Origin: Armillaria gallica
Taxonomy: Eukaryota; Basidiomycota; Agaricomycetes; Agaricales; Physalacriaceae
DNA length: 64,000 bases
Assembly (NCBI GenBank): GCA_037576215.1
Contig: JBANDB010000016.1
Location: 124,001 to 188,000 of the forward strand
Reading direction: 5' to 3'
Positions within the stretch are counted from its first letter, which is position 1; each line of letters opens with the position of its first letter. Positions 2,545-27,616 of this stretch are shown here, piece by piece. The notes under the pieces are model-generated. The model made no database searches, was not told the DNA's origin, and worked only from the letters and a program-made list of their open reading frames with translations. The translations under genes and the position numbers were made by a program.

Positions 2545-3001
2545 CATCTGTGCGTTCCGTATTCGTGCTACGGTTGCTCTCGGCTAAATAGAAACTGTAG
2601 AAGAACGGTCAAGTCTTAGAACACGCCGAAACTTGTATCATGAGGTTGGCATCGTTGACGTGAATGCCCGCGTCAGACTTCCGCTAGATATATCTTCAAA
2701 GAGGAGTCGCAGAGCGGCGGCTGCATGTAACAATACTAATACCAAAGAAATATAGAGAATATTCAGGCCTTCAGCAGGTGGCGCTACACAACCCCTGGAC
2801 AATCACCGGATTGATTTCATTTCAGCATAGCAATTACGTATCTGGAGCTTTCTGCCCTCCGCATTGGGGCAACGAGGTTTTAATCTCTGTATCAATCACG
2901 CTTTCTGCCGACGAATGATTATTTGACAATTCACCACCGGCTACTTGTTAGAACTCTACTGCATAGAGTCTCAAACCCATCGAACGAAAACCACTCTTCT
3001 A
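2545..3001. other. Intergenic, no gene seen
   Basis: No supported coding region. The stretch aligns with 54532-54949 in unit B but is clearly more diverged than the exons on either side, as expected for non-coding sequence between the P450 and the kinase-like gene. Confidence 0.55.
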
Positions 3002-4150
3002 ATGACATCCCGGCCCTCAGATCAGTCGTACGAACCTGATGAATATGATCCGGACTTTGGCTGGGACTACGACATTGACAATCCAATAGCCCTGCGCGAG
3101 TGTTGTCGCAAACTTCTCCGTCTGCGTAAGGCAGCAATCTTCGGTCGCTCACTACAGGTGGGCTTGTCTTTCACAGTCACCTTTCCCCACGTCTTCCACA
3201 CGTCGACCATCGCCAGTGCCCGCGAACTGCCATTGTTTGCGAACCCTGCTGGGAACTATAACGTTGTGGTTACCTCCGTCATCCAGACCTTCATCGAGCG
3301 TAGAACCCTTTGGTCGCAAGTCTGCATTGCCGAAGTTCGCATAGACGGAGAAGCCAAGGGAAAGGTCGCTCTAAAGATTCTTCAGCCTTGGCTACTGCAC
3401 ATTCCGCAGTCTAAATCTGAGGACCCCTTGGGTTAGTGCATTTTTCCTAGGCATCCTGCCCGTATGGAGGATTTAGTCTATGGGAACTGAAGTCTCTGAA
3501 AGGCACTGTGATTCTATACTACTTCGGGCTGCACAAGGTACATCTACAATCTGATTATTTGTCGTTCTAGCTCATGTTCTGTGAACAGTTGACGATGCCT
3601 AACGGATAAGTAGCACGTGTTTTGTTTCTGGAGTATATTGATGGTGTTGCGGTCGCACAGTAGAAACGGACGTATCTGAAGCACGAAATTTTACATAGCG
3701 ATGATGAAGATGATGACGATAAAGCGGACAGTAGAATGTCGGAAGACTCGTGCTCAAGTTCCATGGAGCGTGAGTTTGAGGCTCTGAAGTTCAAACCTGA
3801 GGGTGGCCCCAAATGGTTTTATCGTGTGCTTGGAGAAGCGAAGCGAATTGTACTCTCAATTTTTTCGTCCTTGTTCTCGGTCTTTTACTGAAACTCTCTG
3901 ACTAGTTTCCTTTCGCTTTGCGTGGAATCACGGAAATAAATTCTCGGGGTGTCGCCCACCAGGACGTCTGTCGTGAAAACATGATCATCTACCCGAATGT
4001 TAAGTCACCCCAAAGTTCCGTTTTCGTCGATTTCGCGAGGAGTTGCGTAAATATTCCTCACGAAGAGATTCAAGCTGAATGGGTTGAAAATAAACATGTC
4101 GTCAATTATAGTTGCGGATGCTGTTATTGTCACAGGGATTCACAGGGATA
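3002..4150 (+). pseudogene. Protein-kinase-like gene, decayed
   Basis: The first part (3002-3436) begins with an acidic leader rich in D, P and Y (DEYDPDFGWDYD) and ends in a KGKVALKILQP segment. Further on, MEDLVYG, ILYYFG and LFLEYIDG segments follow, then a degenerate catalytic loop HQDVCRENMI and VFVDFAR in place of DFG. This order matches the kinase-like/phosphotransferase-fold proteins expanded in agaricomycetes. Lesions: a frameshift near 3482 just after VYG, and an in-frame TAA near 3606 where GEVARV would be expected. The copy at 54950 shares the TAA but not this frameshift, so the TAA predates the duplication. An acidic low-complexity insert (D/E/S rich, about 3698-3780) lies before the catalytic part. 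The function is probably lost. Confidence 0.65.
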
Positions 4151-4416
4151 AAGTGACGAGATGGACCAACGGGGATGGGAATCTCCCTCCTGGCGTGTCT
4201 TGCCCAGTAGATAGTGACTCTGATTAGTTGACGATTATGATTTATATACGAGTATGTTGATTAGAATGTGTTTGCGTGCTTTGTACTGAACTTCACGTCG
4301 AATTTAAATTCGCAAATAACAGGACAATGTAATGAAATTAGATAGGTTTCATACCCACATATTGCACAAGAATGTCGAGTGTAACTATTCATCAATCCGA
4401 GTAAACTACCTAGTAT
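4151..4416. other. Convergent intergenic gap
   Basis: A short AT-rich gap between the end of the kinase-like gene (+) and the fungalysin stop codon (-). It probably holds both 3' ends. No gene seen. Confidence 0.5.
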
Positions 4417-6699: not shown

Positions 6700-6756
6700 A
6701 GTCAGTTAAGGAAGAAGAGGATACTCTTGCTGAGTAGAATTAAGATTCCGAGGTGG

Positions 6757-6765
6757 TTTATATAG
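6757..6765 (-). promoter_or_regulatory. TATA box of the fungalysin gene
   Basis: CTATATAAA read on the minus strand, 58 nt upstream of the ATG at 6699. It is conserved at 60382-60390 in unit B at the same distance. Confidence 0.6.
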
Positions 6766-8135
6766 AAATGGCCACTACCCATGCGAAAGGGGAGGAGGTC
6801 TCCATTGAATAGTATATTGAGTCCGATGAGGAACATAGAAATTTGGACCATGTCTTGCACGGCGGACGACGAGTAATCAGGAAAAATGGAGCTAGAGGAA
6901 CTCGGGCGGAGTCAGCAGGAATACAGTGAGCCGCCATTTTGATGGCCCCAGGAGCATTCAGGCTGTCGATCCAGTACATTGAATTCCTGATCATCCTATT
7001 TCCAAAGATATATCAGCAGAGCATCCTCAGAGAGACCGGTACCCTGCTCAGCAGGGAGAGGAACAGTATAGAAGGGCATCAGACTGAGAAGCTTCGAGGT
7101 TCGGCGACACGATATTGGTCGTAGAACAAGAGGACACGCCGAAAGCAGTAAAGAAGGACCCATAACAGCATGCACCAGCATCCGGAGTTTTTCTTTCGGT
7201 TTGTACATACACTGGAACTCTCGCCGATCAAGAAGCCGAGTTTGACGGACAGACAGGAAGTAGACGTTTGTGGAAGCTACTGCCGGTTAGAATTCACCAT
7301 CCCAGGGGCTGTTGCAGAGCTAATGGGCAGAATGAGACATGGATACATATCGGTAACGAGTGATAGCCATACCGTCCGTGCATGCTGATTTTCTTCATTC
7401 AGTTCCCGCCGCTGCTAACTTCCGCTTCAAACGGTCTTATCATCTCCATGATTAGCGGTGCTCGGGTGGACAAGGTTTGGCGGGAAATACATACCATAGA
7501 AGGAGATGTTGGTCGGATCGTAAACTCCTCCGTCTTTCGGGCCAGGGCTCAGGAGCATCCGGTATTGCTTCCATAGTCCAACAAGCATTCATTCACAGGC
7601 TACAGCATCGTCATAACGCCACGCTGTTCATGTAATGCTTACCAAGAACATAGGCGGCCTGCGTTAGTGTCTATACGCTTATACAGGCTAAGCCAATGGC
7701 TGAGGGGATGAATTATTGAATGGATCGGGTGAAGGCGTGAATACGGCCCGAGGACCGGATGAGTAAGTTTCCCACGACTCCTTACTATGACCACCTACCC
7801 TACCTACCCTACCACCGACCGTCATTTCGACTGACTCTTTTTTCTGGCCATTTCTCATGGTCAGGCCCTATTACATTCGCCTCTACGGGACCCTTCTTTT
7901 ATATTCTATGTAGTAGGATGGCCTTTGGAGAAGAAACGACCAAGAAATGACCTGAAACTTGAAGCGAAGTAATGATAAAACGGGAAAGGTTGGGGAAAGG
8001 TATACTACATTTTCCTGCCGCTTTGAGTATTCAAATTCATTAGATAATTTACAGCAGCTTCTTTTCCTGCTATTGGCACCTGAGACCTGAGACTCGGTGC
8101 TATCGACGCGGCTTTCTCGAGGTAAGGGCACCAAC
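6766..8135. other. Conserved flank, no recognised gene
   Basis: This stretch is well conserved with 60391-61815 in unit B. Short open frames on both strands do not keep the same frame in the two copies and carry no domain I recognise. A minus-strand reading over 6760-7210 has one hydrophobic stretch but is broken. The part after about 7740 is the block that sits upstream of every BTB copy in the window (see the finding on the BTB module). Confidence 0.45.
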
Positions 8136-8768
8136 GTATCCTCCCTTTCATCTCTCATCACGTTTACCATAGCTCTTCATATGGTGGCACTGCCTTGACC
8201 TGTTATCAAAGGAAAGAAATGGACAAGGACTCACTTTATGCAGGGGCCAGTTGCGACTCTCCTATAACGTTGCTTCGTGATTGACATTTCCTGTGATAGT
8301 ATTGCCTTTCCTGATGTTCGATGGTGTAGCGTTGCTTCTTCGATATCATAAATGACTTGCTAGTGTCACAGTGAAGACTAATTCTGGCGGAGGCAGCTTG
8401 TCCGTGACGGACGTTGCGGATGAAGCATGTACACATACACGTTCGACGATGTGACCCATGGTGTCTAGATGCAAGTCACAGGCAGTGACGAGATAAGTAT
8501 TGGGAGGGTATGGAGTGGGACGCAAGATGAAGGGACTGAGGTAATACCGGCGACGGGTCAGCGTGCACGTCGCTGGTATGGAAGATGCGTTGGGAAATGG
8601 ACGCAAGGCCATCGGGAGATAACCTGTGTTCATTGGACATAGAAGAGTGGCCGGAGATGGAAGCTTGTTCGACGGAGAAATGTCCGGGACGCGGAAATTC
8701 AATGTATGATATGCTCGAGGTCCTGGAGGGTGAGGAAGTACGTGACTGAGTTGCCAGGAATGGTGTAA
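8136..8768 (+). pseudogene. BTB-gene remnant with its upstream block
   Basis: From about 8480 the plus strand reads pieces of the C-terminal half of the BTB protein encoded at 29149-29958. Examples are WEMDARPSGDNLCSLDIEEW, PEMEACSTEKCPGRGNS and YDMLEVLEG. The first half of the gene, including the BTB fold, is missing and frames change. The matching fragment in unit B is at 62345-62844. Not functional as a BTB protein. Confidence 0.65.
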
Positions 8769-9443
8769 AGGCAAGGCGAAGGCGACTTGTTATCCTTTTG
8801 TTTTGTGCTAACGGTATACCTTCATAGGTACTCCCCTAAGGTCCAATCCCATCATACATTCATGAAAGGTGAGCATCATTACATCGTTCTCCGAATGCAG
8901 GTCTGATGGATGCCGTCCAGTAATATCTATCACCGAATGTCGTAGCCTGGGTTGTGTGCATTCAGTGTTCTGTTCAAGCGAACTTCGTGAAGAATGCTAC
9001 CTACGACTCCGACTGTGAGTCTGTCAAGATTCTCGAGCTTTGGAGACTGCCTAGCGAGACGAGCATGCATCGCATCGTGCTTGGTCAAAAGCTTGATCTG
9101 CGTGACCATCAGGATAATCCCATAACTTCTGTGTCGTGAGGCAGCCGCAGTGGTTTCTCTGTTCTGTGTCAGAGACTAGGATTCGCTGTATTTTTTTTTG
9201 CATGAAAATCCAGATGTTAGCTTCTGGAATAAGAACGTGTATCAGAGCGGCTGGTGTGTGGTTCTTTTATCTTCTCCCGTGTTCTCATTTCTGATTCGAT
9301 GTTTGGTGGTACTGTAGTGCTAAGATGCACTGGCATTGTTACTTACTACGTGTAGTTTGGTCATCATAATAATATTAGAGGTATAATAGATGTGAAACGT
9401 GTTTATACTACTGTACCACAAATGATTCGAAATCTATCTCTGG
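8769..9443. other. Flank left of the palindrome, small ORF of unknown status
   Basis: A 61-codon plus-strand ORF at 8954-9139 is kept open in unit B (63031-63216) with several amino-acid changes, which is suggestive but not proof of coding. It has no motif I recognise. The rest is AT-rich and aligns with 62850-63516. The last six bases (9438-9443, CTCTGG) are the left target duplication of the palindromic element. Confidence 0.4.
9438..9443. repeat. Left 6-bp target-site duplication (CTCTGG)
   Basis: CTCTGG directly precedes the element end TATGGGCG and recurs at 26560-26565 directly after the other end ACGATA. Unit B has a single CTCTGG at the corresponding uninterrupted site (63511-63516). 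Confidence 0.88.
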
Positions 9444-9468
9444 TATGGGCGTAATAATGTACAAAAAT
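9444..9468 (+). repeat. 25-nt terminal sequence, copy 1
   Basis: It begins TATGGGCGTAATAATGTAC and is identical, in the same orientation, to 18008-18032 at the palindrome centre. It forms the extreme left end of the element and has no counterpart at the right end, where the arm stops at ACGATA. Confidence 0.85.
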
Positions 9469-9502
9469 ATCGTGGTTATACTGTACAAAAATTGATCAGA
9501 TC

Positions 9503-9680
9503 CAGGTAGTGCCGTGTCTCTGGCTACGACAGGTACTTTTTGTACGCACCTAGTTATTTCATGACCTCCAGGTACTTTCTGTCGTGTATATAGACCCACC
9601 GATATTTACAGGTACTCCCTTGTGTACCTGTGATAAGCTACGCAGGTACCTTTGACTGTGCATATGGGTAGATACAGGTA
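9503..9680. repeat. Subterminal CAGGTA array, left end
   Basis: CAGGTA occurs at 9503, 9530, 9569, 9609, 9643 and 9675, and in reverse (TACCTG) at 9625. That is seven copies in under 180 nt, several extended to CAGGTACTTT. Such clusters next to element ends often bind the transposase or integrase. The mirror array is at 26347-26524. Confidence 0.6.
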
Positions 9681-9903
9681 GTCGGTATTATACATGGTCC
9701 GAGGGGGAACGCCGCCGGACCGAGTATCTACGCTGCCGAGATCAAGCCGAGCTGCCAAAATTGCGCCGTCTTCGCAAGTGTACAGCTCAAATGGATAATA
9801 TAAGTCTATGCCAATGGGTTCTTATCCTCGTAACATATCACAAAACCAAGATCTCTACCAGACCATCCTAAGAAAATAGAGAAAAAAGTCAATTATGTAG
9901 CAT

Positions 9904-11552
9904 CTATGGCATATCTATATCATTACTCTGAAGTACGTTCTCCATTTTAATCACCGCCTCGCAATACACCTCGATTCCCCAATTCCCGTCGTCCTTCTCA
10001 TATTCAAAATCACCTAGAAGTGCCTTTGCCAGCTCTAAATGCAAATCCTCATTCAAATGAGTTTCCGTTCCCTCTTCCAAACCCTTGGGTGGTGGTATGA
10101 CGGAGTTGCCATCCAATGCACCTTCTTCTCCATAAAAAGGGTTGTTCAAAATGGTTTCAATATCGTCTCCTGCATCCCCTGTCCAATATCCCCTTCGGAT
10201 TGCTTGTTCTCGGCTCAACTCGTACATAGCAAGGGGTGTTCGATTGCCAGCAGTCCTGATCTTGTGATGGTTCCATGCATTGCGGGTTCGGTTTAATGAG
10301 GCCTGGATGCGAGGTTGAAATACCAGAAATAGACATAGACAGTGGACAGGATTCTCCTTGTCCCAAAGACCATTAGACTCTAAGTAATCAAAGATCTGAC
10401 GAAATGTTTCGAGAGAATCCTTGCGTACATCTAGCCATAGGCGCTTGATCCGAACATTGTTGGTAGATCTGTCAAGTGTGTCTTTCAATTTTTTGCACAG
10501 TGTAAAAGCAGAAAGCTCTACATTACCTTCCGCGAAGATAAGCCCGATGTGCTGCTGCCCCCAATGCTCAATCATCACTATCTCAATCCCGTTGTTTTCT
10601 GTTCCAAAGTCCCCTCTAATGCGACTTGGTCAGCCAAATATTGCGATTGCTCTTCTAAAGCAATCCAAAACCGTCTGAGATCGCTTGTTCGAGCAGCATT
10701 CCAGATATATGATGAGATGAGAATGACCATCAACACATCTATGCACCCAAAAGCCCCAATGGCGCAGCTTTTCGTTTCCATCCTGATGCCACAGCGCATT
10801 TGATCCTCGGACCTTGTAAACATGACGCTTGATTATTCCAGCCCATCTATGGCTGATGTGAGTTCATTTCCTGTTGCTTCAGAGAAGAGACCATAATACC
10901 TTACAAGTTCACCAATAGCATCTACTCTGCGTAGGCTTTCCTGGACTCTTTCACGAGGAAGATGGATACCCTTGGCTTCTAAATGCCCAAGGATGATTAC
11001 TGATCCAATAAAAGGATGAGCAAGTGAGATCTCTGCTATGACATCGTCCAGCTCCGCATCACTGATTGCAGTAAATTCTGGTCGCTCAGATGGTATACCA
11101 GCACATTGCAGATGGTTGTACATGGTTCCCCAAGTGGTCCCCATTGCCTTTGCGACATCGTCCCAGCTATTTCCAAGGTTATGCAATAGACAGGCTCGTT
11201 GGAGGTCTATATCATAGCGTGGACGGCCTGGCTGCCCAGTGTGAATACGAGGAAGGTGAGCAGATGGGGCAGGTGGTGGATGCGCAAGAAAATTCTCCAG
11301 AGGAAGTAAAAAGCCATTCACAAATGCGAGAAGCTCTTCAATATCCTCAATAGAAGTGGTGTCGGAAGGATCATTGAAAGAATGGAGGATTGTACAGATG
11401 GCAATAAGCTGGTGAACAATGCACTCGACTGCTGCCAAATCTGTATTAGGGAACGAGTCAATGATAAATTGAGCCTCAGATGTGATCTTATGGCTCTGCG
11501 TGAAGAACTGATAGATGGGATCGTGTCTTCCTTGCCCTTGACCATCACTCAT
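9904..11552 (-). pseudogene. Integrase-type DDE gene, left arm (one in-frame stop)
   Basis: It starts at 11552. The N-terminal half includes a GRPRYDIDLQRACLLHNLG motif and helix-turn-helix-like SWDDVAKAMGTTWGTMYNHL. An intron at 10847-10899 joins in frame to a retroviral-type integrase core. The first catalytic Asp is in LWHQDGNEKL and the second in RIRGDFGTEN. The family's C-terminal pattern follows (NRTRNAWNHHKIRT, TPLAMYELSREQAIRRGYW). Total length is about 530 residues. Two defects: TGA at 10630-10632 just before PSRIRGD, where a Trp codon is expected, and RIKRLW where the family has RIERLW, so the catalytic Glu is Lys. Both are shared with the right arm. This looks like the former transposition enzyme, now inactive. 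Confidence 0.8.
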
Positions 11553-11730
11553 GGTGGTTAAGAAGCAAGTTTAGGAGTCTGCACTCGGAGTAATAAAAAT
11601 TCGCCATTTTCTATCACTTCAGATGCTACAGTTTGAGAGGAGATGTATTTAGTACAGCCGAATGTGGTACCATTTGCATATGTAGCATACCATCAATAAT
11701 TACTTATGTGTACGGTTGTATATCAAGGAT

Positions 11731-14700
11731 CTAGTGCCCTTTTGGCCATACATAAGTACCTTCAATGCACTCCCACCAAAGGTTCAATGCTGGCTTGAAT
11801 ACCGAACAGATCTTCTGCCACTCCTCAGACTGGTTTCCATTCTTATCAATGTGATAAACCTACAAAGATAGAAGCAGCTGTTAGATGTATACATTCCCCG
11901 GTGCATGAAAAGATGTACCAGATGAATTTTTTTCCATTGCACAGTTGGCTTTATACCTTCCCGAAAAATGTCCGTCAATCGGGGTTTTACGATTGGGATC
12001 TGGGTGACCGAAATCATTCAGTAATCCCGATAGAAAGTGTGGCCACTTGATACGAGGGTCCTTGTGTGTATTTGCAAGTTCTTTGGCTTCTTCAACTCGA
12101 GATTTTACTACCTTTGCACCATTGATAGCGGATGGTCCTGGTTTAGATGATGGTCCTGGCTTAGACGATGGTCCTGGCTTGGGAGTCCTGCTCTGGGATG
12201 ATGGCTTAGGGACCGATGAAAACGGCTTCCTAGGATGTTCAGCTGAACGAGGAAAGGGTCGTTTTCCTGGATGTTGTGTAGATGGTTTCGCTGAGTTATG
12301 TGGACCAGCCGCTGAATGTCTCAGTGGGATCGTATGTGTGCTCGTTTTCTTTGGCTTCTTCCCTGAAAGACTGGATCAGTTGCAACAAAAATTGATGAGA
12401 GCGCAAGGTACCTAGCCACGCATACTTGTCTGAGATTTCATCAAAATTGTCCCATTTGGACTTGGGCGCCTCATCACTTGATGAGCCTGGCACATATGTA
12501 AACGTCGGTTTGGCTATGACAACGATAGGTGCAAAGAATATAAATTGATACAGAGTACTCACAATCAGGCGCTACTCTCTCTGGATGCCGAACTTGGTGC
12601 CGAAACTTGATATCTGGTTGATTTGGCTGGACTTTAGTATAGTAGTCAGATCCGAGTGAGTCCATATTCGTCATGTCTTCAAGATTTTGTAGCAACGTGA
12701 CGGTAAGATTTTACTAGAGTCAAATGAGACATACCATCATGACTATCGGTTTCATATTCATGCCACCATTCGCTGGACTTCTTCTGTCGATAATAGCCTG
12801 TCCTAAGAAGCGACGTCTATTCGATTATATATGGAAACATCTAGGAAGAAATTACTTCGAGTTTAAAGTAGCTCCAGGTACACCTGGGCCCTTCTTCGAT
12901 GACCATGTCTTCCTATGTGACTTCTCTGCTCCACTTGCCTGTCCTTTATCATGCTTCTCCTCTGAAGGTGGCCTATACGACTGAAGTTTCTATCGCGTCA
13001 GCCTACGATCATGCATTATTAGAGTAAATGACACACCTTTATGGTATTGCTCATCTTACGAGCTAGTCCCTTACACAGCTTCACCAGGATAGCCAATAAA
13101 TCGAAGTATCCATCCACATCGTAATTGATGTTGTCAAGGACAGGAATGACGATCAGTGAGTAGAACCCATCGAGGCCGTACTGACCAGTGCAGATGGCGT
13201 CATGGCGCATATGCATCGGGTTGGACAAGTTTCCGAATGCCGTTGCAAGGAGAAACTTAATATGTTCTACCTTTAGTGGGCTCTCTGCAACGTTGATCTG
13301 CGACAAAGACTCATACAAGGTTGACTGCGGTGTTCCTACCTGTTCGTCAGATAGTATGTTTAGCAATACATTTACAAGGAAAAAGTGATTGGCTCACTGG
13401 AAGCTTGTCACCATGACTGTAGAGAATGTATATGAGGTCGCGACAGCCATCGGCGTCCCAAAGTCTGCAGTGGTGTTTGGTTCACAGATGAATCAGCAGT
13501 ACACTGAGATGGAATGGAAGATCACGAAACAAATTCAGAGCACGAGTGCCCAATGCATCCAAGGGTACATCTTGGGGCAGTGCACAGAGCATATTGAACA
13601 AGTCCATCAAGAACGAGATCAATATGCCCATGCCGCTGGGAGCATAGGCACAGTCCGGTTCCTCCACGATCACGTGTACCATATCCGTAGTTTCCTGCTT
13701 GTTCGTAGCTACATCTGTGACTATCACCAGCATTCCTCCATTCTCTCTCTCGTGGACCTAGCGATACGGTTCCACCGCCTGGACCGACAACAAACGTGTC
13801 ATCAAAGTCCTTCTCAAGTGTCAGTGAAGATAAGGAAGACGCTGAGATAGAAACTGATAGCTCTATGAATGGTTGCAGTAAATCATGAAGTAGCTGGTCC
13901 AGGAAGATGAGGAACCCATTAACGGTGCTTGGTTTCTCATCTTCCGACAAAGCAACTACCTTCTTGATGTGCGCATTGAGAACTGGCTGTAGTGCTTTCA
14001 TATCTTTGAAGAATTTTGGGCTCGGATGGCTGGTTAGACCCGTCAAAAACTGTGTGTCTTTATTCAGGACTTTCATGACTAGTGAAAGTAGAAAGACGTA
14101 CCCATTTTTGATGCTGCGTTGGTAGGACCGCCATGAGTGCAGGCGCTGAAGTCTCAAGATCGCCAGAGGAATAGTATTATCGAGGAAGATACCTGTCTTG
14201 GGTGGAGTGGGTTTTATTTCAGCATGCAATGGAGACTGGACTGTGCTTGTGGTGGGTGTCGGAAGGGAGCCCGGGGTATACATCTGTGACTGGCTTGAGC
14301 TAAGGAATGGCACGCCGTAAAGGAAGGAATTTATATGTACCTGACTTGCACCTGCGCCGCCACTTCTCTTGAGGCCTGGATCTCCATGGGTCTGAAGAAA
14401 TGGAGGAACATGAGATTTTCACAGCGTCGCTATACCAGCTTATGCACTTACAGTAATATAACCATGTTGGAACAACTCTGGGGACGTAGGTCCATGATGT
14501 GTGCCAAACTTCTAATGATGATCGTAACTTATGAATCATGCCAAACGTACATGACAAATGTACAAATTGCTGGAAATCTGGTGTACCTGACACGTTTGTG
14601 CTACCTTGGAAAAATTCATTGTGAAACCCGGGCTGAATTGACATGATTTGAGTCACAAATGCCACTTCTAGCAGTAATTCATATAGACATACATCAAAAT

Positions 14701-16519
14701 CTCCAAATTCCGGCGGCAAGTGTCCAAAATCCTCGTCGCCAGTGGCAAAGACAAAGGCATCAGGTAGCTATGGATGATGTTCAATGATACTTATATTTAG
14801 GAGAAGCGATAACAAAATTGACTCACATTGTGTGCTGTCGAAGCCTTGTTTGGCACCTTCGGTACATTGGAACTTTCCCAGGATGCCTCAGAGTCACTTG
14901 CCGGTGGAAAAAAACAGTGGTTGCTATTGTGTATGATCTATGAGTATACGAGCAGAGTATTGGATATAACAACACTGATCCATACCATTGCAGAATTTAT
15001 CTGAGGGCCATCCTGTAGGCCAGCTTGAGGCTCCTAGATCATTGTCGTTCGTCAGCACACATTAAAGATGATATGAGAGGGCACTTACATCATGACCATC
15101 CTCCCTGCTGGAAAACCCAGAACTTCCAGCGGCAGCGACATTGTCAGCGGGTATATTCCTGTCACCAGTACCTAACTCTTCATCATCCATGTTGTTGTCA
15201 GGCTCAAAAATGGAGGGAACATTGATGTCGGGTTCTCCGATTTGGATACCCGCCACTTTTGACGTCATGAGGCTGAGTATTATAACCAGAACTGAAACAG
15301 TGTTCAGTACAGATATTGGAGAGTGATCGCACAACATACAACTTGAGAGCCTCATAATCTAGTTGACCATTTGTTACCAGGGTGGTAGCCTTGAACACAG
15401 TGCATTGACCTTTGCAGCCAGCAGAAGATTCTCCCCGCAATACCGACCAGTTTCCTGGATGAATAAGGTCCTTGAATGCATCCTCAATCAGTGCGATTAC
15501 CAGAAAGCTTTTCGTGCTCTTAGGAACCTGAACTTCGTGCACAAAGCGAGCTATACAAAGCGCAATGAACCTGCTGTTCATTTCTCTGTGAGTCTGGGAA
15601 ATAGATTGAAATGAAAACAGACGTACTGATGAGTGCTAACCCATTCAAATTTCCCAGATCACATCACAGATGTCTCGCTGACCAAGGCAATCATAAACAT
15701 TGTTGGTGAGTCATTGCCTTGGGCAGAAGAGGCCTTGGTCTTCTTTGACTGCTTCATTCCAGACACTGAGTCAGATTCGGTAGTTGTCGCCGCCTTCTTG
15801 CGCTTCTTTGGTGGGGCAGTATCTTTACTGTTCTTGCTGATGATCGCAGCAATCTGACTCTGAGGCAGATTGATTCAGCTTGCGTTTCTGGGAAGGTAGG
15901 AAAAGATATATCCTCACCTTTTGAGCTGGATTGAACGGCTGCCCGCCAATGACGGGGTTGTTTGTCATGGCAACGGTCATCGACTCGTGGCGTTTCTTGG
16001 CCATGGCAGCAAACGTCAAGGTATTATGAGTCAGGGTAGGGTCTGTATGGCTCAGAGATGCCATATGGGTCGCCGATGAGCGAGACTTGTACATAGTTTC
16101 CTTGGTCACATTGGCATCGATATTTCCGCTAGTTCCACTACTGTTTGGAGTAGCCTAAAGTTCGAGTTTAATGAAGTATTTAGTATAAGAGCAAGTTCAT
16201 TCCCATACCTTGATATTCACGGACGCCTTACCAGAGCCAGAGAGATTGACAGGAGTTAGCTTTGGTGCTGCGGCCGGTGCCTTCAGATGCTCCTAGAGTC
16301 TGTTAAGAACGATGATATTCACAGAAGGACTAGCCTCAACGATACATTTTTGATATGAGAGGCGGCAGGGCATTTGCAGACTGCGCAAACACTCAAAACT
16401 GGAACGGTGTTTCCATCGATGGCCTCCGTGGCAATGAAACCAAACCCGCAGTAAGAGCTGCATTTTACAGGATCATTGCGGCAAGAGCCAAGGCGGTCAA
16501 GGGTAATATGCTGTGACAT
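11731..16519 (-). CDS. Large multi-exon element gene, function unknown (left arm)
   Basis: A suggested start at 16519 opens a Cys-rich module (SCRNDPVKCSSYCGFGF followed by CAVCKCPAASH) that could bind zinc. Then comes a basic, Lys-rich linker (PPKKRKKAATTTES) that resembles a nuclear-localisation signal, then a FVHEVQVPKSTKSFLVIALI segment. Acidic and Ser-rich linkers, a mostly helical region (RLQRLHSWRSYQRSIKNGY to VVGPGGGTVSLG) and a PGPSSKPGPS repeat follow, ending in FKPALNLWWECIEGTYVWP. Exons are short and most junctions look normal. One 7-A run near 11935 puts the last two exons out of frame in both arms, and a TGA near 15663 needs an intron or is a lesion. It lies about 180 nt upstream of the integrase and runs the same way. 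No domain is recognised. It could be two genes. Confidence 0.45.
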
Positions 16520-16612
16520 TCTAAGAGGCAAGTCAATGTAGGCTTTTGGGGAGGGAAAAAGGAATGGGAACAAACAAGAAATTTTCACCGAAGTTTTTGG
16601 CATATTTGCCAC

Positions 16613-16620
16613 ATTAAAAT
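16613..16620. repeat. 8-bp target duplication of nested element (ATTAAAAT)
   Basis: ATTAAAAT at 16613-16620 and again at 17725-17732 flanks the nested element exactly. Confidence 0.85.
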
Positions 16621-17724
16621 AAGGCCAAGAGAATTCTGTGTTAGACATCTGCGTGGATGCATTCAACTGCATTCATCTGTGTTTGCGTGAGTTCAACTTT
16701 CATATGTTCGTGGGCCTGTCAATGCATTTAGATGCACGGTATCCTGATAGTCAGTACCATTTCAACAATACCGGTTAATTATGTTTTCTGTTGAATAATG
16801 ACTTACTTTTCTGATTTTCCTGGAAATATCTCCGTGACTTAATATAACTTAAAACAATGGGTAATTGTCTATAAAGGCCATGAATGCATGCATGTTGGTC
16901 AGTCCTAGTCTCACAACAACTAGAGTACCGTTTTATGTCAAACTACTTGTGATCCCTTTGCTTTTCTTGACTTTGAGTAAATCAGGCACCTCTAAAATCA
17001 ACGCAAAGACTCACACATCTCAAAAATAAGTCACGCATGTGTCCAAACATCGAACGCATAGCGTTAAGAAAGTGCACGCATGCGTTCCTTTTGAAAACGC
17101 ATGCGTCCGAGATTAAACGCAAGTGTGTGACAGTTATGTGACAAATCTGCGTTCGGTGCATTTGATGCGTTTAAGTCCGAGTTGAACTAGTTGACTTATG
17201 ATCGCTTTGATTTCTCCTGCCCATATTTTCCTCTAGTCGCTCATTCTAGGCAAGTATTTTATTTTTATGTTGTATTCCAGTTGTGTATAGCCAGGTTGCT
17301 GTCAAGTTGCTGTTTTGGAGCTGTAATTTTGCTCAGTTTCTTCAGCTTGTTTCTTGAGAGAATGGTCATGGTACCATAGTCTGTACTGAAGGTTATTATA
17401 CCTCATGGCCTCTAACACCTCTTGAAACCTCCGAGCACTCTTACATCTAAAATTCCATCTCTTACATTAATGAATTCAACTGTATAGAGACTCTACCATG
17501 ATGAAAAAAGTCAATTCTGGCGGGTGTTGATGTCGTGCTGGCTATAAATTTGATAGGCAGTAAGTCTTACTTATACTGTAGCTAATAAAAATAATTTTAC
17601 AGGCGTCTGTAAGCCCAAATGCACAAGACGCCCAACAAACGCATCCATGTCACGCTCACACAGACGTGACAAACACATGCGTGAAAACGCAAACGCAAAT
17701 GCAAACGCAGAATTCTACGTGCCC
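16621..17724. mobile_element. Nested hAT-like non-autonomous element, left arm (1104 bp)
   Basis: Ends are AAGGCCAAGAGAATTCTG and, from the other side, GGGCACGTAGAATTCTGCG. They share the core GAATTCTG, and the flanking duplication is 8 bp, as in hAT elements. Subterminal regions are dense in ACGCAAAT/ATGCGT words. There is no transposase; the longest ORF (17191-17379, 62 codons) is hydrophobic and not recognisable. The element is present in both arms, so it inserted before the dimer formed. It is related to the 1.69-kb element at 57921-59610. Confidence 0.8.
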
Positions 17725-18007
17725 ATTAAAATAGGCACAAACACAGATAAGGCCATGGCCATGCATAATTCTGGAGGGGTCAGTCATCGGTAGTAGTGTC
17801 AGGATCCCCTGAAAAGTACTTGCAAATTTGAAGTGGTGGTGAAATTCAGGGACATATGTGACGTGTCAATCCAGTAGCATATGGGAAAGTGGCTGTGCAA
17901 ACCTAATCTGAGAAACAACCAGCGGAAGGGCAGCCATCTACTTAAATAAGTGGTGCTAGGTCACTTCTGAAGTAGTGATGTTGCCCCGTGGAAAGAAATA
18001 ATTTTTG

Positions 18008-18032
18008 TATGGGCGTAATAATGTACAAAAAT
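18008..18032 (+). repeat. 25-nt terminal sequence, copy 2, at the palindrome centre
   Basis: Identical to 9444-9468. It contains the 14-nt non-palindromic spacer (18010-18023). It is the only asymmetric part of the centre. Confidence 0.85.
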
Positions 18033-18308
18033 TATTTTTTTCCACAGGGCAACATCACTACTTCAGAAGTGACCTAGCACCACTTATTTAAGTAGATGGC
18101 TGCCCTTCCGCTGGTTGTTTCTCAGATTAGGTTTGCACAGCCACTTTCCCATATGCTACTGGATTGACACGTCACATATGTCCCTGAATTTCACCACCAC
18201 TTCAAATTTGCAAGTACTTTTCAGGGGATCCTGACACTACTACCGATGACTGACCCCTCCAGAATTATGCATGGCCATGGCCTTATCTGTGTTTGTGCCT
18301 ATTTTAAT

Positions 18309-19411
18309 GGGCACGTAGAATTCTGCGTTTGCATTTGCGTTTGCGTTTTCACGCATGTGTTTGTCACGTCTGTGTGAGCGTGACATGGATGCGTTTGTTG
18401 GGCGTCTTGTGCATTTGGGCTTACAGACGCCTGTAAAATTATTTTTATTAGCTACAGTATAAGTAAGACTTACTGCCTATCAAATTTATAGCCAGCACGA
18501 CATCAACACCCGCCAGAATTGACTTTTTTCATCATGGTAGAGTCTCTATACAGTTGAATTCATTAATGTAAGAGATGGAATTTTAGATGTAAGAGTGCTC
18601 GGAGGTTTCAAGAGGTGTTAGAGGCCATGAGGTATAATAACCTTCAGTACAGACTATGGTACCATGACCATTCTCTCAAGAAACAAGCTGAAGAAACTGA
18701 GCAAAATTACAGCTCCAAAACAGCAACTTGACAGCAACCTGGCTATACACAACTGGAATACAACATAAAAATAAAATACTTGCCTAGAATGAGCGACTAG
18801 AGGAAAATATGGGCAGGAGAAATCAAAGCGATCATAAGTCAACTAGTTCAACTCGGACTTAAACGCATCAAATGCACCGAACGCAGATTTGTCACATAAC
18901 TGTCACACACTTGCGTTTAATCTCGGACGCATGCGTTTTCAAAAGGAACGCATGCGTGCACTTTCTTAACGCTTGCGTTCGATGTTTGGACACATGCGTG
19001 ACTTATTTTTGAGATGTGTGAGTCTTTGCGTTGATTTTAGAGGTGCCTGATTTACTCAAAGTCAAGAAAAGCAAAGGGATCACAAGTAGTTTGACATAAA
19101 ACGGTACTCTAGTTGTTGTGAGACTAGGACTGACCAACATGCATGCATTCATGGCCTTTATAGACAATTACCCATTGTTTTAAGTTATATTAAGTCACGG
19201 AGATATTTCCAGGAAAATCAGAAAAGTAAGTCATTATTCAACAGAAAACATAATTAACCGGTATTGTTGAAATGGTACTGACTATCAGGATACCGTGCAT
19301 CTAAATGCATTGACAGGCCCACGAACATATGAAAGTTGAACTCACGCAAACACAGATGAATGCAGTTGAATGCATCCACGCAGATGTCTAACACAGAATT
19401 CTCTTGGCCTT
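18309..19411. mobile_element. Nested hAT-like element, right arm (1103 bp)
   Basis: Mirror copy of 16621-17724 with the same flanking ATTTTAAT duplications (18301-18308 and 19412-19419). It was carried along by the inverted duplication, not inserted independently. Confidence 0.8.
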
Positions 19412-19511
19412 ATTTTAATGTGGCAAATATGCCAAAAACTTCGGTGAAAATTTCTTGTTTGTTCCCATTCCTTTTTCCTCCCCAAAAGCCTACATTGACT
19501 TGCCTCTTAGA

Positions 19512-22500
19512 ATGTCACAGCATATTACCCTTGACCGCCTTGGCTCTTGCCGCAATGATCCTGTAAAATGCAGCTCTTACTGCGGGTTTGGTTTCATTGC
19601 CACGGAGGCCATCGATGGAAACACCGTTCCAGTTTTGAGTGTTTGCGCAGTCTGCAAATGCCCTGCCGCCTCTCATATCAAAAATGTATCGTTGAGGCTA
19701 GTCCTTCTGTGAATATCATCGTTCTTAACAGACTCTAGGAGCATCTGAAGGCACCGGCCGCAGCACCAAAGCTAACTCCTGTCAATCTCTCTGGCTCTGG
19801 TAAGGCGTCCGTGAATATCAAGGTATGGGAATGAACTTGCTCTTATACTAAATACTTCATTAAACTCGAACTTTAGGCTACTCCAAACAGTAGTGGAACT
19901 AGCGGAAATATCGATGCCAATGTGACCAAGGAAACTATGTACAAGTCTCGCTCATCGGCGACCCATATGGCATCTCTGAGCCATACAGACCCTACCCTGA
20001 CTCATAATACCTTGACGTTTGCTGCCATGGCCAAGAAACGCCACGAGTCGATGACCGTTGCCATGACAAACAACCCCGTCATTGGCGGGCAGCCGTTCAA
20101 TCCAGCTCAAAAGGTGAGGATATATCTTTTCCTACCTTCCCAGAAACGCAAGCTGAATCAATCTGCCTCAGAGTCAGATTGCTGCGATCATCAGCAAGAA
20201 CAGTAAAGATACTGCCCCACCAAAGAAGCGCAAGAAGGCGGCGACAACTACCGAATCTGACTCAGTGTCTGGAATGAAGCAGTCAAAGAAGACCAAGGCC
20301 TCTTCTGCCCAAGGCAATGACTCACCAACAATGTTTATGATTGCCTTGGTCAGCGAGACATCTGTGATGTGATCTGGGAAATTTGAATGGGTTAGCACTC
20401 ATCAGTACGTCTGTTTTCATTTCAATCTATTTCCCAGACTCACAGAGAAATGAACAGCAGGTTCATTGCGCTTTGTATAGCTCGCTTTGTGCACGAAGTT
20501 CAGGTTCCTAAGAGCACGAAAAGCTTTCTGGTAATCGCACTGATTGAGGATGCATTCAAGGACCTTATTCATCCAGGAAACTGGTCGGTATTGCGGGGAG
20601 AATCTTCTGCTGGCTGCAAAGGTCAATGCACTGTGTTCAAGGCTACCACCCTGGTAACAAATGGTCAACTAGATTATGAGGCTCTCAAGTTGTATGTTGT
20701 GCGATCACTCTCCAATATCTGTACTGAACACTGTTTCAGTTCTGGTTATAATACTCAGCCTCATGACGTCAAAAGTGGCGGGTATCCAAATCGGAGAACC
20801 CGACATCAATGTTCCCTCCATTTTTGAGCCTGACAACAACATGGATGATGAAGAGTTAGGTACTGGTGACAGGAATATACCCGCTGACAATGTCGCTGCC
20901 GCTGGAAGTTCTGGGTTTTCCAGCAGGGAGGATGGTCATGATGTAAGTGCCCTCTCATATCATCTTTAATGTGTGCTGACGAACGACAATGATCTAGGAG
21001 CCTCAAGCTGGCCTACAGGATGGCCCTCAGATAAATTCTGCAATGGTATGGATCAGTGTTGTTATATCCAATACTCTGCTCGTATACTCATAGATCATAC
21101 ACAATAGCAACCACTGTTTTTTTCCACCGGCAAGTGACTCTGAGGCATCCTGGGAAAGTTCCAATGTACCGAAGGTGCCAAACAAGGCTTCGACAGCACA
21201 CAATGTGAGTCAATTTTGTTATCGCTTCTCCTAAATATAAGTATCATTGAACATCATCCATAGCTACCTGATGCCTTTGTCTTTGCCACTGGCGACGAGG
21301 ATTTTGGACACTTGCCGCCGGAATTTGGAGATTTTGATGTATGTCTATATGAATTACTGCTAGAAGTGGCATTTGTGACTCAAATCATGTCAATTCAGCC
21401 CGGGTTTCACAATGAATTTTTCCAAGGTAGCACAAACGTGTCAGGTACACCAGATTTCCAGCAATTTGTACATTTGTCATGTACGTTTGGCATGATTCAT
21501 AAGTTACGATCATCATTAGAAGTTTGGCACACATCATGGACCTACGTCCCCAGAGTTGTTCCAACATGGTTATATTACTGTAAGTGCATAAGCTGGTATA
21601 GCGACGCTGTGAAAATCTCATGTTCCTCCATTTCTTCAGACCCATGGAGATCCAGGCCTCAAGAGAAGTGGCGGCGCAGGTGCAAGTCAGGTACATATAA
21701 ATTCCTTCCTTTACGGCGTGCCATTCCTTAGCTCAAGCCAGTCACAGATGTATACCCCGGGCTCCCTTCCGACACCCACCACAAGCACAGTCCAGTCTCC
21801 ATTGCATGCTGAAATAAAACCCACTCCACCCAAGACAGGTATCTTCCTCGATAATACTATTCCTCTGGCGATCTTGAGACTTCAGCGCCTGCACTCATGG
21901 CGGTCCTACCAACGCAGCATCAAAAATGGGTACGTCTTTCTACTTTCACTAGTCATGAAAGTCCTGAATAAAGACACACAGTTTTTGACGGGTCTAACCA
22001 GCCATCCGAGCCCAAAATTCTTCAAAGATATGAAAGCACTACAGCCAGTTCTCAATGCGCACATCAAGAAGGTAGTTGCTTTGTCGGAAGATGAGAAACC
22101 AAGCACCGTTAATGGGTTCCTCATCTTCCTGGACCAGCTACTTCATGATTTACTGCAACCATTCATAGAGCTATCAGTTTCTATCTCAGCGTCTTCCTTA
22201 TCTTCACTGACACTTGAGAAGGACTTTGATGACACGTTTGTTGTCGGTCCAGGCGGTGGAACCGTATCGCTAGGTCCACGAGAGAGAGAATGGAGGAATG
22301 CTGGTGATAGTCACAGATGTAGCTACGAACAAGCAGGAAACTACGGATATGGTACACGTGATCGTGGAGGAACCGGACTGTGCCTATGCTCCCAGCGGCA
22401 TGGGCATATTGATCTCGTTCTTGATGGACTTGTTCAATATGCTCTGTGCACTGCCCCAAGATGTACCCTTGGATGCATTGGGCACTCGTGCTCTGAATTT

Positions 22501-24299
22501 GTTTCGTGATCTTCCATTCCATCTCAGTGTACTGCTGATTCATCTGTGAACCAAACACCACTGCAGACTTTGGGACGCCGATGGCTGTCGCGACCTCATA
22601 TACATTCTCTACAGTCATGGTGACAAGCTTCCAGTGAGCCAATCACTTTTTCCTTGTAAATGTATTGCTAAACATACTATCTGACGAACAGGTAGGAACA
22701 CCGCAGTCAACCTTGTATGAGTCTTTGTCGCAGATCAACGTTGCAGAGAGCCCACTAAAGGTAGAACATATTAAGTTTCTCCTTGCAACGGCATTCGGAA
22801 ACTTGTCCAACCCGATGCATATGCGCCATGACGCCATCTGCACTGGTCAGTACGGCCTCGATGGGTTCTACTCACTGATCGTCATTCCTGTCCTTGACAA
22901 CATCAATTACGATGTGGATGGATACTTCGATTTATTGGCTATCCTGGTGAAGCTGTGTAAGGGACTAGCTCGTAAGATGAGCAATACCATAAAGGTGTGT
23001 CATTTACTCTAATAATGCATGATCGTAGGCTGACGCGATAGAAACTTCAGTCGTATAGGCCACCTTCAGAGGAGAAGCATGATAAAGGACAGGCAAGTGG
23101 AGCAGAGAAGTCACATAGGAAGACATGGTCATCGAAGAAGGGCCCAGGTGTACCTGGAGCTACTTTAAACTCGAAGTAATTTCTTCCTAGATGTTTCCAT
23201 ATATAATCGAATAGACGTCGCTTCTTAGGACAGGCTATTATCGACAGAAGAAGTCCAGCGAATGGTGGCATGAATATGAAACCGATAGTCATGATGGTAT
23301 GTCTCATTTGACTCTAGTAAAATCTTACCGTCACGTTGCTACAAAATCTTGAAGACATGACGAATATGGACTCACTCGGATCTGACTACTATACTAAAGT
23401 CCAGCCAAATCAACCAGATATCAAGTTTCGGCACCAAGTTCGGCATCCAGAGAGAGTAGCGCCTGATTGTGAGTACTCTGTATCAATTTATATTCTTTGC
23501 ACCTATCGTTGTCATAGCCAAACCGACGTTTACATATGTGCCAGGCTCATCAAGTGATGAGGCGCCCAAGTCCAAATGGGACAATTTTGATGAAATCTCA
23601 GACAAGTATGCGTGGCTAGGTACCTTGCGCTCTCATCAATTTTTGTTGCAACTGATCCAGTCTTTCAGGGAAGAAGCCAAAGAAAACGAGCACACATACG
23701 ATCCCACTGAGACATTCAGCGGCTGGTCCACATAACTCAGCGAAACCATCTACACAACATCCAGGAAAACGACCCTTTCCTCGTTCAGCTGAACATCCTA
23801 GGAAGCCGTTTTCATCGGTCCCTAAGCCATCATCCCAGAGCAGGACTCCCAAGCCAGGACCATCGTCTAAGCCAGGACCATCATCTAAACCAGGACCATC
23901 CGCTATCAATGGTGCAAAGGTAGTAAAATCTCGAGTTGAAGAAGCCAAAGAACTTGCAAATACACACAAGGACCCTCGTATCAAGTGGCCACACTTTCTA
24001 TCGGGATTACTGAATGATTTCGGTCACCCAGATCCCAATCGTAAAACCCCGATTGACGGACATTTTTCGGGAAGGTATAAAGCCAACTGTGCAATGGAAA
24101 AAAATTCATCTGGTACATCTTTTCATGCACCGGGAATGTATACATCTAACAGCTGCTTCTATCTTTGTAGGTTTATCACATTGATAAGAATGGAAACCAG
24201 TCTGAGGAGTGGCAGAAGATCTGTTCGGTATTCAAGCCAGCATTGAACCTTTGGTGGGAGTGCATTGAAGGTACTTATGTATGGCCAAAAGGGCACTAG
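19512..24299 (+). CDS. Large multi-exon element gene, function unknown (right arm)
   Basis: Mirror of the gene at 11731-16519, with the same order of parts: Cys-rich module at about 19512-19690, KKRKK basic stretch near 20225, acidic linkers at about 20780-21330, helical region at about 21720-22260, Pro/Gly/Ser repeat near 23850-23900 and a terminal aromatic motif ending at the TAG at 24297-24299. Introns of about 50-60 nt can be placed between most segments (for example a donor after VNIK near 19822). The 7-A run near 24099 gives the same frameshift as in the left arm. Because it is always paired with the integrase within the element, it may be an accessory protein for mobility. That is inference only. 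Confidence 0.45.
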
Positions 24300-24477
24300 A
24301 TCCTTGATATACAACCGTACACATAAGTAATTATTGATGGTATGCTACATATGCAAATGGTACCACATTCGGCTGTACTAAATACATCTCCTCTCAAACT
24401 GTAGCATCTGAAGTGATAGAAAATGGCGAATTTTTATTACTCCGAGTGCAGACTCCTAAACTTGCTTCTTAACCACC

Positions 24478-26124
24478 ATGAGTGATGGTCAAGGGCAAGG
24501 AAGACACGATCCCATCTATCAGTTCTTCACGCAGAGCCATAAGATCACATCTGAGGCTCAATTTATCATTGACTCGTTCCCTAATACAGATTTGGCAGCA
24601 GTCGAGTGCATTGTTCACCAGCTTATTGCCATCTGTACAATCCTCCATTCTTTCAATGATCCTTCCGACACCACTTCTATTGAGGATATTGAAGAGCTTC
24701 TCGCATTTGTGAATGGCTTTTTACTTCCTCTGGAGAATTTTCTTGCGCATCCACCACCTGCCCCATCTGCTCACCTTCCTCGTATTCACACTGGGCAGCC
24801 AGGCCGTCCACGCTATGATATAGACCTCCAACGAGCCTGTCTATTGCATAACCTTGGAAATAGCTGGGACGATGTCGCAAAGGCAATGGGGACCACTTGG
24901 GGAACCATGTACAACCATCTGCAATGTGCTGGTATACCATCTGAGCGACCAGAATTTACTGCAATCAGTGATGCGGAGCTGGACGATGTCATAGCAGAGA
25001 TCTCACTTGCTCATCCTTTTATTGGATCAGTAATCATCCTTGGGCATTTAGAAGCCAAGGGTATCCATCTTCCTCGTGAAAGAGTCCAGGAAAGCCTACG
25101 CAGAGTAGATGCTATTGGTGAACTTGTAAGGTATTATGGTCTCTTCTCTGAAGCAACAGGAAATGAACTCACATCAGCCATAGATGGGCTGGAATAATCA
25201 AGCGTCATGTTTACAAGGTCCGAGGATCAAATGCGCTGTGGCATCAGGATGGAAACGAAAAGCTGCGCCATTGGGGCTTTTGGGTGCATAGATGTGTTGA
25301 TGGTCATTCTCATCTCATCATATATCTGGAATGCTGCTCGAACAAGCGATCTCAGACGGTTTTGGATTGCTTTAGAAGAGCAATCGCAATATTTGGCTGA
25401 CCAAGTCGCATTAGAGGGGACTTTGGAACAGAAAACAACGGGATTGAGATAGTGATGATTGAGCATTGGGGGGCAGCACATCGGGCTTATCTTCGCGGAA
25501 GGTAATGTAGAGCTTTCTGCTTTTACACTGTGCAAAAAATTGAAAGACACACTTGACAGATCTACCAACAATGTTCGGATCAAGCGTCTATGGCTAGATG
25601 TACGCAAGGATTCTCTCGAAACATTTCGTCAGATCTTTGATTACTTAGAGTCTAATGGTCTTTGGGACAAGGAGAATCCTGTCCACTGTCTATGTCTATT
25701 TCTGGTATTTCAACCTCGCATCCAGGCCTCATTAAACCGAACCCGCAATGCATGGAACCATCACAAGATCAGGACTGCTGGCAATCGAACACCCCTTGCT
25801 ATGTACGAGTTGAGCCGAGAACAAGCAATCCGAAGGGGATATTGGACAGGGGATGCAGGAGACGATATTGAAACCATTTTGAACAACCCTTTTTATGGAG
25901 AAGAAGGTGCATTGGATGGCAACTCCGTCATACCACCACCCAAGGGTTTGGAAGAGGGAACGGAAACTCATTTGAATGAGGATTTGCATTTAGAGCTGGC
26001 AAAGGCACTTCTAGGTGATTTTGAATATGAGAAGGACGACGGGAATTGGGGAATCGAGGTGTATTGCGAGGCGGTGATTAAAATGGAGAACGTACTTCAG
26101 AGTAATGATATAGATATGCCATAG
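24478..26124 (+). pseudogene. Integrase-type DDE gene, right arm (stop plus frameshift)
   Basis: Same protein as the left-arm gene. The first exon is 24478-25130, the intron 25131-25183, and the second exon runs to 26124. It shares the TGA (25398-25400) and the Glu-to-Lys change in RIKRLW. It additionally differs by a net 2 nt at about 25466-25475 (six G then CAG, against five G then CAGCAG in the other arm), which shifts the frame right after MIEHW. This copy is therefore more damaged than the left one. Confidence 0.8.
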
Positions 26125-26346
26125 ATGCTACATAATTGACTTTTTCTCTATTTTCTTAGGATGGTCTGGTAGAGATCTTGGTTTTGTGATATGTTACGAG
26201 GATAAGAACCCATTGGCATAGACTTATATTATCCATTTGAGCTGTACACTTGCGAAGACGGCGCAATTTTGGCAGCTCGGCTTGATCTCGGCAGCGTAGA
26301 TACTCGGTCCGGCGGCGTTCCCCCTCGGACCATGTATAATACCGAC
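26125..26346. other. Outer non-coding part of the right arm
   Basis: Mirror of 9681-9903. It holds a GC-rich patch (CGGCGGCG near 26311) but no gene, and leads into the subterminal CAGGTA array. Confidence 0.5.
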
Positions 26347-26524
26347 TACCTGTATCTACCCATATGCACAGTCAAAGGTACCTGCGTAGCTTATCACAGG
26401 TACACAAGGGAGTACCTGTAAATATCGGTGGGTCTATATACACGACAGAAAGTACCTGGAGGTCATGAAATAACTAGGTGCGTACAAAAAGTACCTGTCG
26501 TAGCCAGAGACACGGCACTACCTG
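26347..26524. repeat. Subterminal CAGGTA array, right end
   Basis: Mirror of 9503-9680: seven CAGGTA/TACCTG words within 180 nt, starting about 35 nt inside the element end. Confidence 0.6.
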
Positions 26525-26559
26525 GATCTGATCAATTTTTGTACAGTATAACCACGATA

Positions 26560-26565
26560 CTCTGG
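26560..26565. repeat. Right 6-bp target-site duplication (CTCTGG)
   Basis: CTCTGG directly after the element end at 26559. It is followed by AACTGTTGTCCG, which continues the unit A sequence as in unit B (GACTGTTGTCCG). Confidence 0.88.
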
Positions 26566-26741
26566 AACTGTTGTCCGTAACACGAAGCTACCACTAATGG
26601 GCACCCTGGTATCGTCCGTATTTTTGTCTGATATGGTACATGGTAGCGGGTTTTGCCGCAGTACGTAATTATGTACTTTACCTGTTTTCCCCTAAGTAAG
26701 CATGGAGTGTTCCTTTGTTACGTGCTAGTAGACAAACAGGA

Positions 26742-27616
26742 TTAGTCCGGTGGTACTGGCGGAATGTGCTTGTATCCGACACGGCCCTGCCATGGACCAG
26801 CATCATCACTTAGGGAAAGAAGGAAGAAAGCAAAGAAACACAGGGCCAAGGTGCTGTAGTATGCTGTCTGCTTGATTATGGCACTGATCTCCATTGCTTC
26901 CTTCGACGCCGTGGCCTTCACACTGTGCATATCGACCATCAGATCATGTTGCTGGCAGATGATCTCCATGAGCGTTATTTTGAAGTCACCCAACATATAC
27001 CGTCCTCATCTGTCAAAAAAGGTATATCGTCGTCTGTCTAGGAGAGACTAGAGCTACGGCATACTAGGATCAGATTGTCGCCTTTCGAGGAAATGTAAAA
27101 ATATACACACCAAGAAGTCTATCCTCAGGTGATTGACACGCCTCCCATAAGTCTCGATGGTCGCTTTAAATTCAGGAGCATTGAGGATTCCCTTGATGCC
27201 GTGTTGCTTCCGTTGGGCATCTTTCAGTCCTTGAATTATAAAGTCAAGGTATCTGTAGTTTCAAAACAAGTTGATAGCTGTTGAGACATGACAGCCAACG
27301 GAAATGCAAACTCACCGTTCCATCTCCAAACAAATCTCCTTGAAATGAGTTTCTCCTGTTTCCCTCTGCATTTTAGTAAGTATATCGACGACAACGATGG
27401 TATCAGTGATGCTTTCGCAGAGTTCCTTCGTGGCTGCTTTATTCTTCCCCTTAGCCTATAGAGTACTGAATCAGGGGACAAGTAGTACAGCAAAGACTAC
27501 ATGCGAACCTCGAGCAACTCCATAATGGCTGCCGCGACTTTGGCCAGGTTCCCGACGTACGGTGCTCCAGAATCGGCAACGATGCGGGCGAGTTTCAGAG
27601 AAGTACTGAGTGACAT
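26742..27616 (-). CDS. Small helical protein with C-terminal membrane segment (MLKL-N-terminal/HeLo-like, tentative)
   Basis: Start at 27616 (MSLSTSLKLARIVADSGAPY). The first exon, ending AKVAAAIMELLE, is followed after a short intron by AKGKNKAATKELCESITDT and then, after another intron, by YLDFIIQGLKDAQRKQHGI. The last exon, MEIICQQHDLMVDMHSVKAT onward, ends with a single hydrophobic segment (STLALCFFAFFLLSL) and a GYKHIPPVPPD tail. The alternating helices resemble the four-helix adaptor/MLKL-N-terminal-like domains common in agaricomycetes, which in other proteins link to membrane-damaging cell-death responses. That link is family inference and weak. The last splice junction, around 27000-27095, does not join cleanly, so the gene may be damaged. 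The tail is duplicated at 63695-63946, and relatives lie at 28243-28875 and 41690-41990. Confidence 0.5.

Follow-up and report, generated by a model that had tools for sequence, protein, structure and literature searches.

How does a near-perfect palindrome of 17.1 kb come to lie between the two copies of a single 6-bp target duplication? The question is raised by a stretch of 64,000 nucleotides of Armillaria gallica (assembly GCA_037576215.1, contig JBANDB010000016.1, C16:124001-188000), hereafter called the window. A preliminary description, made from the letters of the window, took the palindrome for an inverted-dimer transposon that had been inserted as one unit. We compared the window with itself and with the genome (86 Mb, 28 contigs). 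The results point to another origin: the palindrome probably formed in place, when paired ends of two sister copies of one IS3EU-like DNA transposon were inserted into the element's own tip. Positions are window coordinates unless they are prefixed by a contig (C18: for contig 18, and so on).

Structure of the palindrome

The self-comparison of the window gave a single long inverted match, 9468-26559 against its own reverse, at 99.825% identity. Such length and identity are far beyond chance, and the palindrome is really present in the assembly. When the arms were aligned with mafft, the outer 24 bp and the centre aside, they differed by 3 substitutions and by 5 small gaps within the arms, amounting to 6 columns; some of these differences are changes of homopolymer length. 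The parts of the locus are as follows.

9438-9443: CTCTGG, left copy of the outer 6-bp target duplication
9444-9467, plus strand: 24-bp end2 tip of the copy taken to have received the insertion; it ends in CAAAAA, the 6-bp inner target site
9468-18007, plus strand: copy A, starting at the exact end1 terminus TATCGTGG
18008-18025: 18-bp centre TATGGGCGTAATAATGTA, the end2 tip of copy B, with ends that pair as TA..TA
18008-26559, minus strand: copy B, a complete monomer of 8,552 bp, with end2 TATGGGCG at 18008 and the end1 terminus at 26559
9468-18007 and 18026-26559, inverted: arms of the palindrome, more than 99% identical
26560-26565: CTCTGG, right copy of the outer target duplication
63514-63519: single CTCTGG; empty paralogous site, in the second unit of a segmental duplication

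The near-perfect palindrome and the CTCTGG at both of its outer edges had been described correctly. The empty site was also recognised, at a coordinate three bases too low (63511-63516). The spacer given as 14 nt is a centre of 18 bp, the shorter figure arising since the ends of the centre pair as TA..TA. The mirroring was said to run from 9444; it was missed that 9444-9467 has no mirror image at the right end, and that its 24 bp are repeated exactly at 18008-18031. Copy A lacks the outermost 18 bp of its end2 and terminates in TTTTTG, the complement of CAAAAA.

The monomer and its target duplications

The monomer was defined from shorter relatives in the same genome, which were found with arm fragments as queries. 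It is 8.56 kb long, has two differing ends, end1 TATCGTGG and end2 TATGGGCG, and makes a 6-bp target duplication. In the relatives, the end1 tip resembles TATCGTGGTTATACTGTACAAAAATT and the end2 tip TATGGGCGTAATAATGTACAAAAATT. A scan of the genome allowing at most 3 mismatches found 36 end2-like and 20 end1-like sites, and none in the control read backwards.

We examined the flanks of 12 elements with both ends recognised, outside the palindrome and the pair on C18 described below; elements with one recognised end only (e.g. C20, C5:2685249) were excluded. The flanking 6-mers agreed at 6/6 bases in five elements, at 5/6 in five, at 4/6 in one and at 3/6 in one. The comparison among relatives that the preliminary description had proposed thus yields a 6-bp rule, with 10 of the 12 elements at 5 or 6 matching bases, a level (at least 5/6) reached by about 0.5% of random pairs. 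Two of the 12 lie in compound places: the C4 element (3/6), which belongs to an exchanged pair, and C8:103628 (5/6), which belongs to the C8 complex. A search for solo monomers and further dimers was also proposed there. The arm stretch 10445-13000 has two matches in the genome, the two arms themselves, and no third copy; shorter relatives were found, as were inverted pairs on C18 and C4.

Junctions and mode of insertion

Set against the monomer, all junctions of the palindrome are accounted for and nothing is left over. On the left, CTCTGG is followed by the exact 24-bp end2 tip and then by the exact end1 terminus. In the middle, copy A breaks off exactly 18 bp before its own end2 terminus, and copy B starts exactly at its end2 terminus. 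On the right, the exact end1 terminus of copy B is followed by CTCTGG. The 24 bp kept on the left less the 18 bp lost at the centre leave 6, the family's duplication length, and the bases in question are CAAAAA. This inner duplication has been exchanged between the two copies.

Exchanged duplications imply either hybrid insertion or ectopic recombination. According to passages of a paper on the transposon Galileo, hybrid insertion leaves identical copies and ectopic recombination leaves chimeric ones (PMC2775673). Here the copies lie in opposite orientation, their duplications are exchanged, and they are identical and not chimeric. We therefore consider it likely that the palindrome stems from one hybrid-element (sister-chromatid) insertion into the element's own tip. 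The starting point would be one 8.56-kb integrase-type transposon at CTCTGG, its end2 facing the left flank and its end1 the right. Once this element had been replicated, the transposase would bring together end2 from one sister copy and end1 from the second. The target of the paired ends would be CAAAAA in the second copy, 18 bp inward of that copy's own end2 terminus. There end1 would be attached to the outermost 24 bp of end2, and the remainder of the second copy would be inverted and linked to the end2 left intact in the first. The resulting locus would read left flank, CTCTGG, 24-bp tip, inverted copy minus 18 bp, complete copy, CTCTGG, right flank. No separate donor would be needed, because the one element is present on both sisters. 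We infer that both junctions came from a single transposase event between sisters, with the transposase supplied by another copy.

A scripted model of sister-chromatid hybrid insertion was run with the target position p at 8-199 and the duplication length k at 0-11, k not being preset. It reproduces both junctions only at p=24 and k=6, and this k is the family's rule. Over 17.1 kb, the modelled structure and the window differ by 3 substitutions and 6 gapped columns. A simple fold-back in place, or hairpin replication, is disfavoured since it does not predict the relation between 24, 18 and 6.

The inverted dimer of the preliminary description, a 17.1-kb compound excised elsewhere and inserted as one unit, fares poorly against these junctions. 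The outer ends, one end2 tip and one end1, would suit it, as would the perfect CTCTGG and the empty paralogue. However, CTCTGG is already accounted for as the duplication of a single monomer, with the inverted copy lying inside that monomer's end and CAAAAA exchanged. Compared with the window, the dimer in its plain tail-to-tail form has 3 substitutions and 48 gapped columns, where the hybrid insertion has 6 gapped columns. Neither several copies of a dimer nor outer ends that are alike were found: the outer left end is an end2 tip and the outer right one an end1, and 10445-13000 occurs nowhere in the genome outside the two arms. The C18 pair, moreover, shows formation in place. Hence, we regard this explanation as very unlikely; the finished compound may later have moved as a unit. 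That a transposon made the structure, as the preliminary description held, is borne out by the genuine 6-bp duplication and the empty paralogue. Its argument that these two features exclude an origin in place does not stand, since formation in place gives both as well.

An assembly artefact, in which a fold-back or chimeric join would have doubled a single 8.5-kb element, is the explanation we believe least. Long palindromes are hard to assemble, some of the differences between the arms are those of homopolymer length, and the structure is known from the assembly, a point that counts against hybrid insertion as well. Yet a fold-back predicts neither the 24-bp tip outside end1, nor the exact loss of 18 bp at the centre, nor the difference of 6 bp, nor the right flank behind the second CTCTGG. 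The preliminary description had likewise judged a fold-back error to be unlikely.

Inverted pairs elsewhere in the genome

Inverted neighbours were picked by eye from the listings of end1 and end2 sites. They occur at four places: the window, C18, C4 and C8. In the pair at C18:1307616-1309999, the forward copy lies between CAGCCT and ACAATG and the inverted copy between AGGCTG and CATTGT, with a total of 86 bp separating the two copies. Both target duplications are thus exchanged, and the partners are identical at 1147 of 1149 bases. The right flank of this pair was considered as a second 24-bp tip on account of a weak likeness (query 8-24); part of the likeness is explained by the exchange of ACAATG and CATTGT, and the rest was taken as chance.

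The pair at C4:240428-241947 has TATTTA beside end1 and, beside the second end2, the complementary TAAATA. Its second copy survives as 95 bp that are 98.9% identical to the first copy's end2. Just outside end1 of this pair lies a small palindrome, ACGCCCTTTAGGGCGT (C4:241628-241660), which resembles two facing end2 fragments. The fourth place, C8:98517 to ~105000, holds an ordinary inverted nesting of diverged subfamilies. At C8:98599-104367 the inserted element is split by ~4.9 kb after its base 27, and the element starts a second time at 103628; this complex shows a partial tandem arrangement and contains further insertions.

Partners are far closer to each other (99.9% in the window, 99.8% on C18) than to the nearest other copies among the nine places compared (76.6% and 88.8%), which favours hybrid insertion. 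For the same reason we disfavour ectopic recombination between two independent insertions, which would also exchange the duplications. Unlinked copies on C3 and C9 are 98.3% identical, and this weakens the rejection somewhat.

The most serious rival consists of two steps. A monomer would have been excised from one sister and pasted, inverted, into the other's end2, duplicating CAAAAA; later, arm exchange or the resolution of a cruciform would have flipped the 18-bp centre and exchanged the duplications. This route ends in the same final sequence as hybrid insertion. Self-insertion of transposons is known (PMC3952818), and the C8 nesting, with its TAATTT duplication (6/6) not exchanged, shows that ordinary inverted nesting exists in the family. 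However, the two-step route calls for one more recombination event at this locus and another at C18 (and C4), and its unflipped form fits the window worse, with 15 substitutions (and 6 gapped columns) against 3. We see it as a possible but rather unlikely course of events.

Several points weigh against hybrid insertion, besides the dependence on the assembly. The two-step route cannot be told from it by the final sequence. Because the unlinked C3 and C9 copies are 98.3% identical, high identity is not unique to pairs and does not by itself prove an origin from one element; this weakens our reading and strengthens the two-step route. Gene conversion could have equalised the arms, and the reciprocal chromatid product cannot be seen. 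Only one of the two exchanges is checkable at C4, and C8 shows no exchange. The integrase is broken in both arms, which requires an enzyme from elsewhere or lesions that spread later. Finally, a distant relative of the integrase region on C19 (65% over 904 bp) means that diverged autonomous relatives exist.

The transposase and the family of the element

Each copy carries an integrase-type transposase gene.

9904-11552, minus strand: transposase gene in copy A, with a PF24764 core split in two, an in-frame stop and a change of frame
24478-26121, plus strand: transposase gene of copy B; the lesions of copy A and a further 2-bp gap

The lesions were judged against a relative of 427 aa (P0130). 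The in-frame stop and the change of frame are common to both arms; the latter may be a frameshift or an intron, and an intron would hardly account for the stop. Since the gene is broken in both arms, the active enzyme was probably supplied by another copy. The genome has 45 matches to PF24764, of which 4 are within the palindrome, and some of the others lie in frames without stops. The integrase is 96% identical to a fragment from A. nabsnona.

The Pfam scan covered 20 of the 38 reading frames of at least 70 aa. PF24764 was the sole family above the curated cut-off in these frames; PF00665, PF05553, PF24530 and PF22642 matched below it. Maverick/Polinton elements, which also make 6-bp duplications, were considered and set aside on this result. 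No cargo genes, alpha-kinase or TET gene were recognised in the same frames. The N-terminal frame of the transposase matched no Pfam family. Three of its 16 homologues carry PF13384, PF13936 or PF02796, which we take to be helix-turn-helix domains.

By its PF24764 core, its TA..TA ends and its 6-bp duplications the element resembles IS3EU, to judge from published descriptions. These give IS3EU TA..TA termini and usually 6-bp duplications (PMC10045372), and the portion consulted of a report on fungal IS3EU gives tips TAYGG..CCRTA and inverted repeats of more than 30 bp for rust-fungus families (PMC12730594). The preliminary description knew of no fungal element of this shape with this integrase type; the type itself, PF24764, fits an IS3EU description already reported from fungi. 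The likeness to IS3EU and GingerRoot, as far as the cited descriptions go, lies in the TA..TA termini, which the Armillaria element has, in the 6-bp duplications and in an IS-like DDE integrase core. End2 fits TATGG, whereas end1 is TATCG and departs from the TAYGG of the rust-fungus families, and the tips are alike over ~24-30 bp only.

Relation to known rearrangements

P and Ac/Ds are established cases of hybrid element insertion and sister chromatid transposition, and non-standard transposition has also caused rearrangements with impala in Fusarium and with Sleeping Beauty, according to the sections of two accounts drawn on here (PMC3744419, PMC8225341). In these sections and those on Galileo (PMC2775673), as in our proposal, ends of two sister copies cooperate, and the products are inverted identical copies with exchanged target duplications. 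The palindrome differs in its integrase-like enzyme (PF24764) and in a target within an end of the element itself. Because of this target, the inverted segment would be 18 bp and the product a near-perfect palindrome. In the double Ds of maize, one element lies inside its inverted twin, the arrangement proposed here; double Ds belongs to another superfamily, and its insertion is in the body of the element, in contrast to 24 bp from the tip. Double Ds is mentioned as chromosome-breaking (PMC3260210). The inverted pairs of Galileo in Drosophila share the inverted copies and exchanged duplications, but Galileo copies are described as chimeric, the outcome of ectopic recombination, and those of Armillaria are near-identical (PMC2775673).

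The type of accident is thus already known; for this group of elements, with the element's own tip as the target, the accounts cited, as far as they were consulted, hold no counterpart. We met no work that joins IS3EU with alternative transposition; no search was aimed at this pairing, and we claim no absence. The locus would document, to the exact base, alternative transposition in a group of integrase-type transposons. It would also mean that a long palindrome with a single flanking target duplication can arise in place, and such a duplication is therefore no proof of a dimeric transposon. With its 18-bp centre, the 17-kb palindrome is also a natural test case for how stable palindromes are in the genome of a fungus. 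Loci like double Ds or Mu killer are associated with chromosome breakage or silencing hairpin RNA. It is a distinctly doubtful conjecture that hybrid insertion between sister chromatids recurs among the IS3EU-like transposons of Armillaria, with targets in or next to the element's own ends and palindromic loci as the result, and that the palindrome could break chromosomes or yield a hairpin RNA that silences the family.

Nested repeats and surroundings

A further repeat is nested in the arms.

16622-17723, plus strand: 1.1-kb high-copy repeat nested in copy A, with the mirrored place in copy B too
16612-16621 and 17724-17733: 10-bp duplication CATTAAAATA of the 1.1-kb repeat

Elsewhere in the genome the repeat has at least 39 matches, which are 76-95% identical. 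Because it occupies the same place in both arms, it appears to be older than the arm duplication, unless it was spread by conversion. A 138-bp stretch at 13637-13774, mirrored in arm B, recurs elsewhere in the genome, often as two direct copies ~1.53-1.55 kb apart (C5, C4, C11, C22), like a miniature element with terminal repeats.

The palindrome lies in the first unit only of the segmental duplication, in which 291-9443 and 26560-27098 correspond to 52265-64000, up to the window's end; the pieces are ~82-94% identical, and one of 51 bp is 98% identical. Two other stretches, 39085-40816 and 46306-48022, are copies of each other at 79.8% identity, and the second holds an F-box-like protein. An F-box protein of the window is 95% identical to one from Armillaria gallica.

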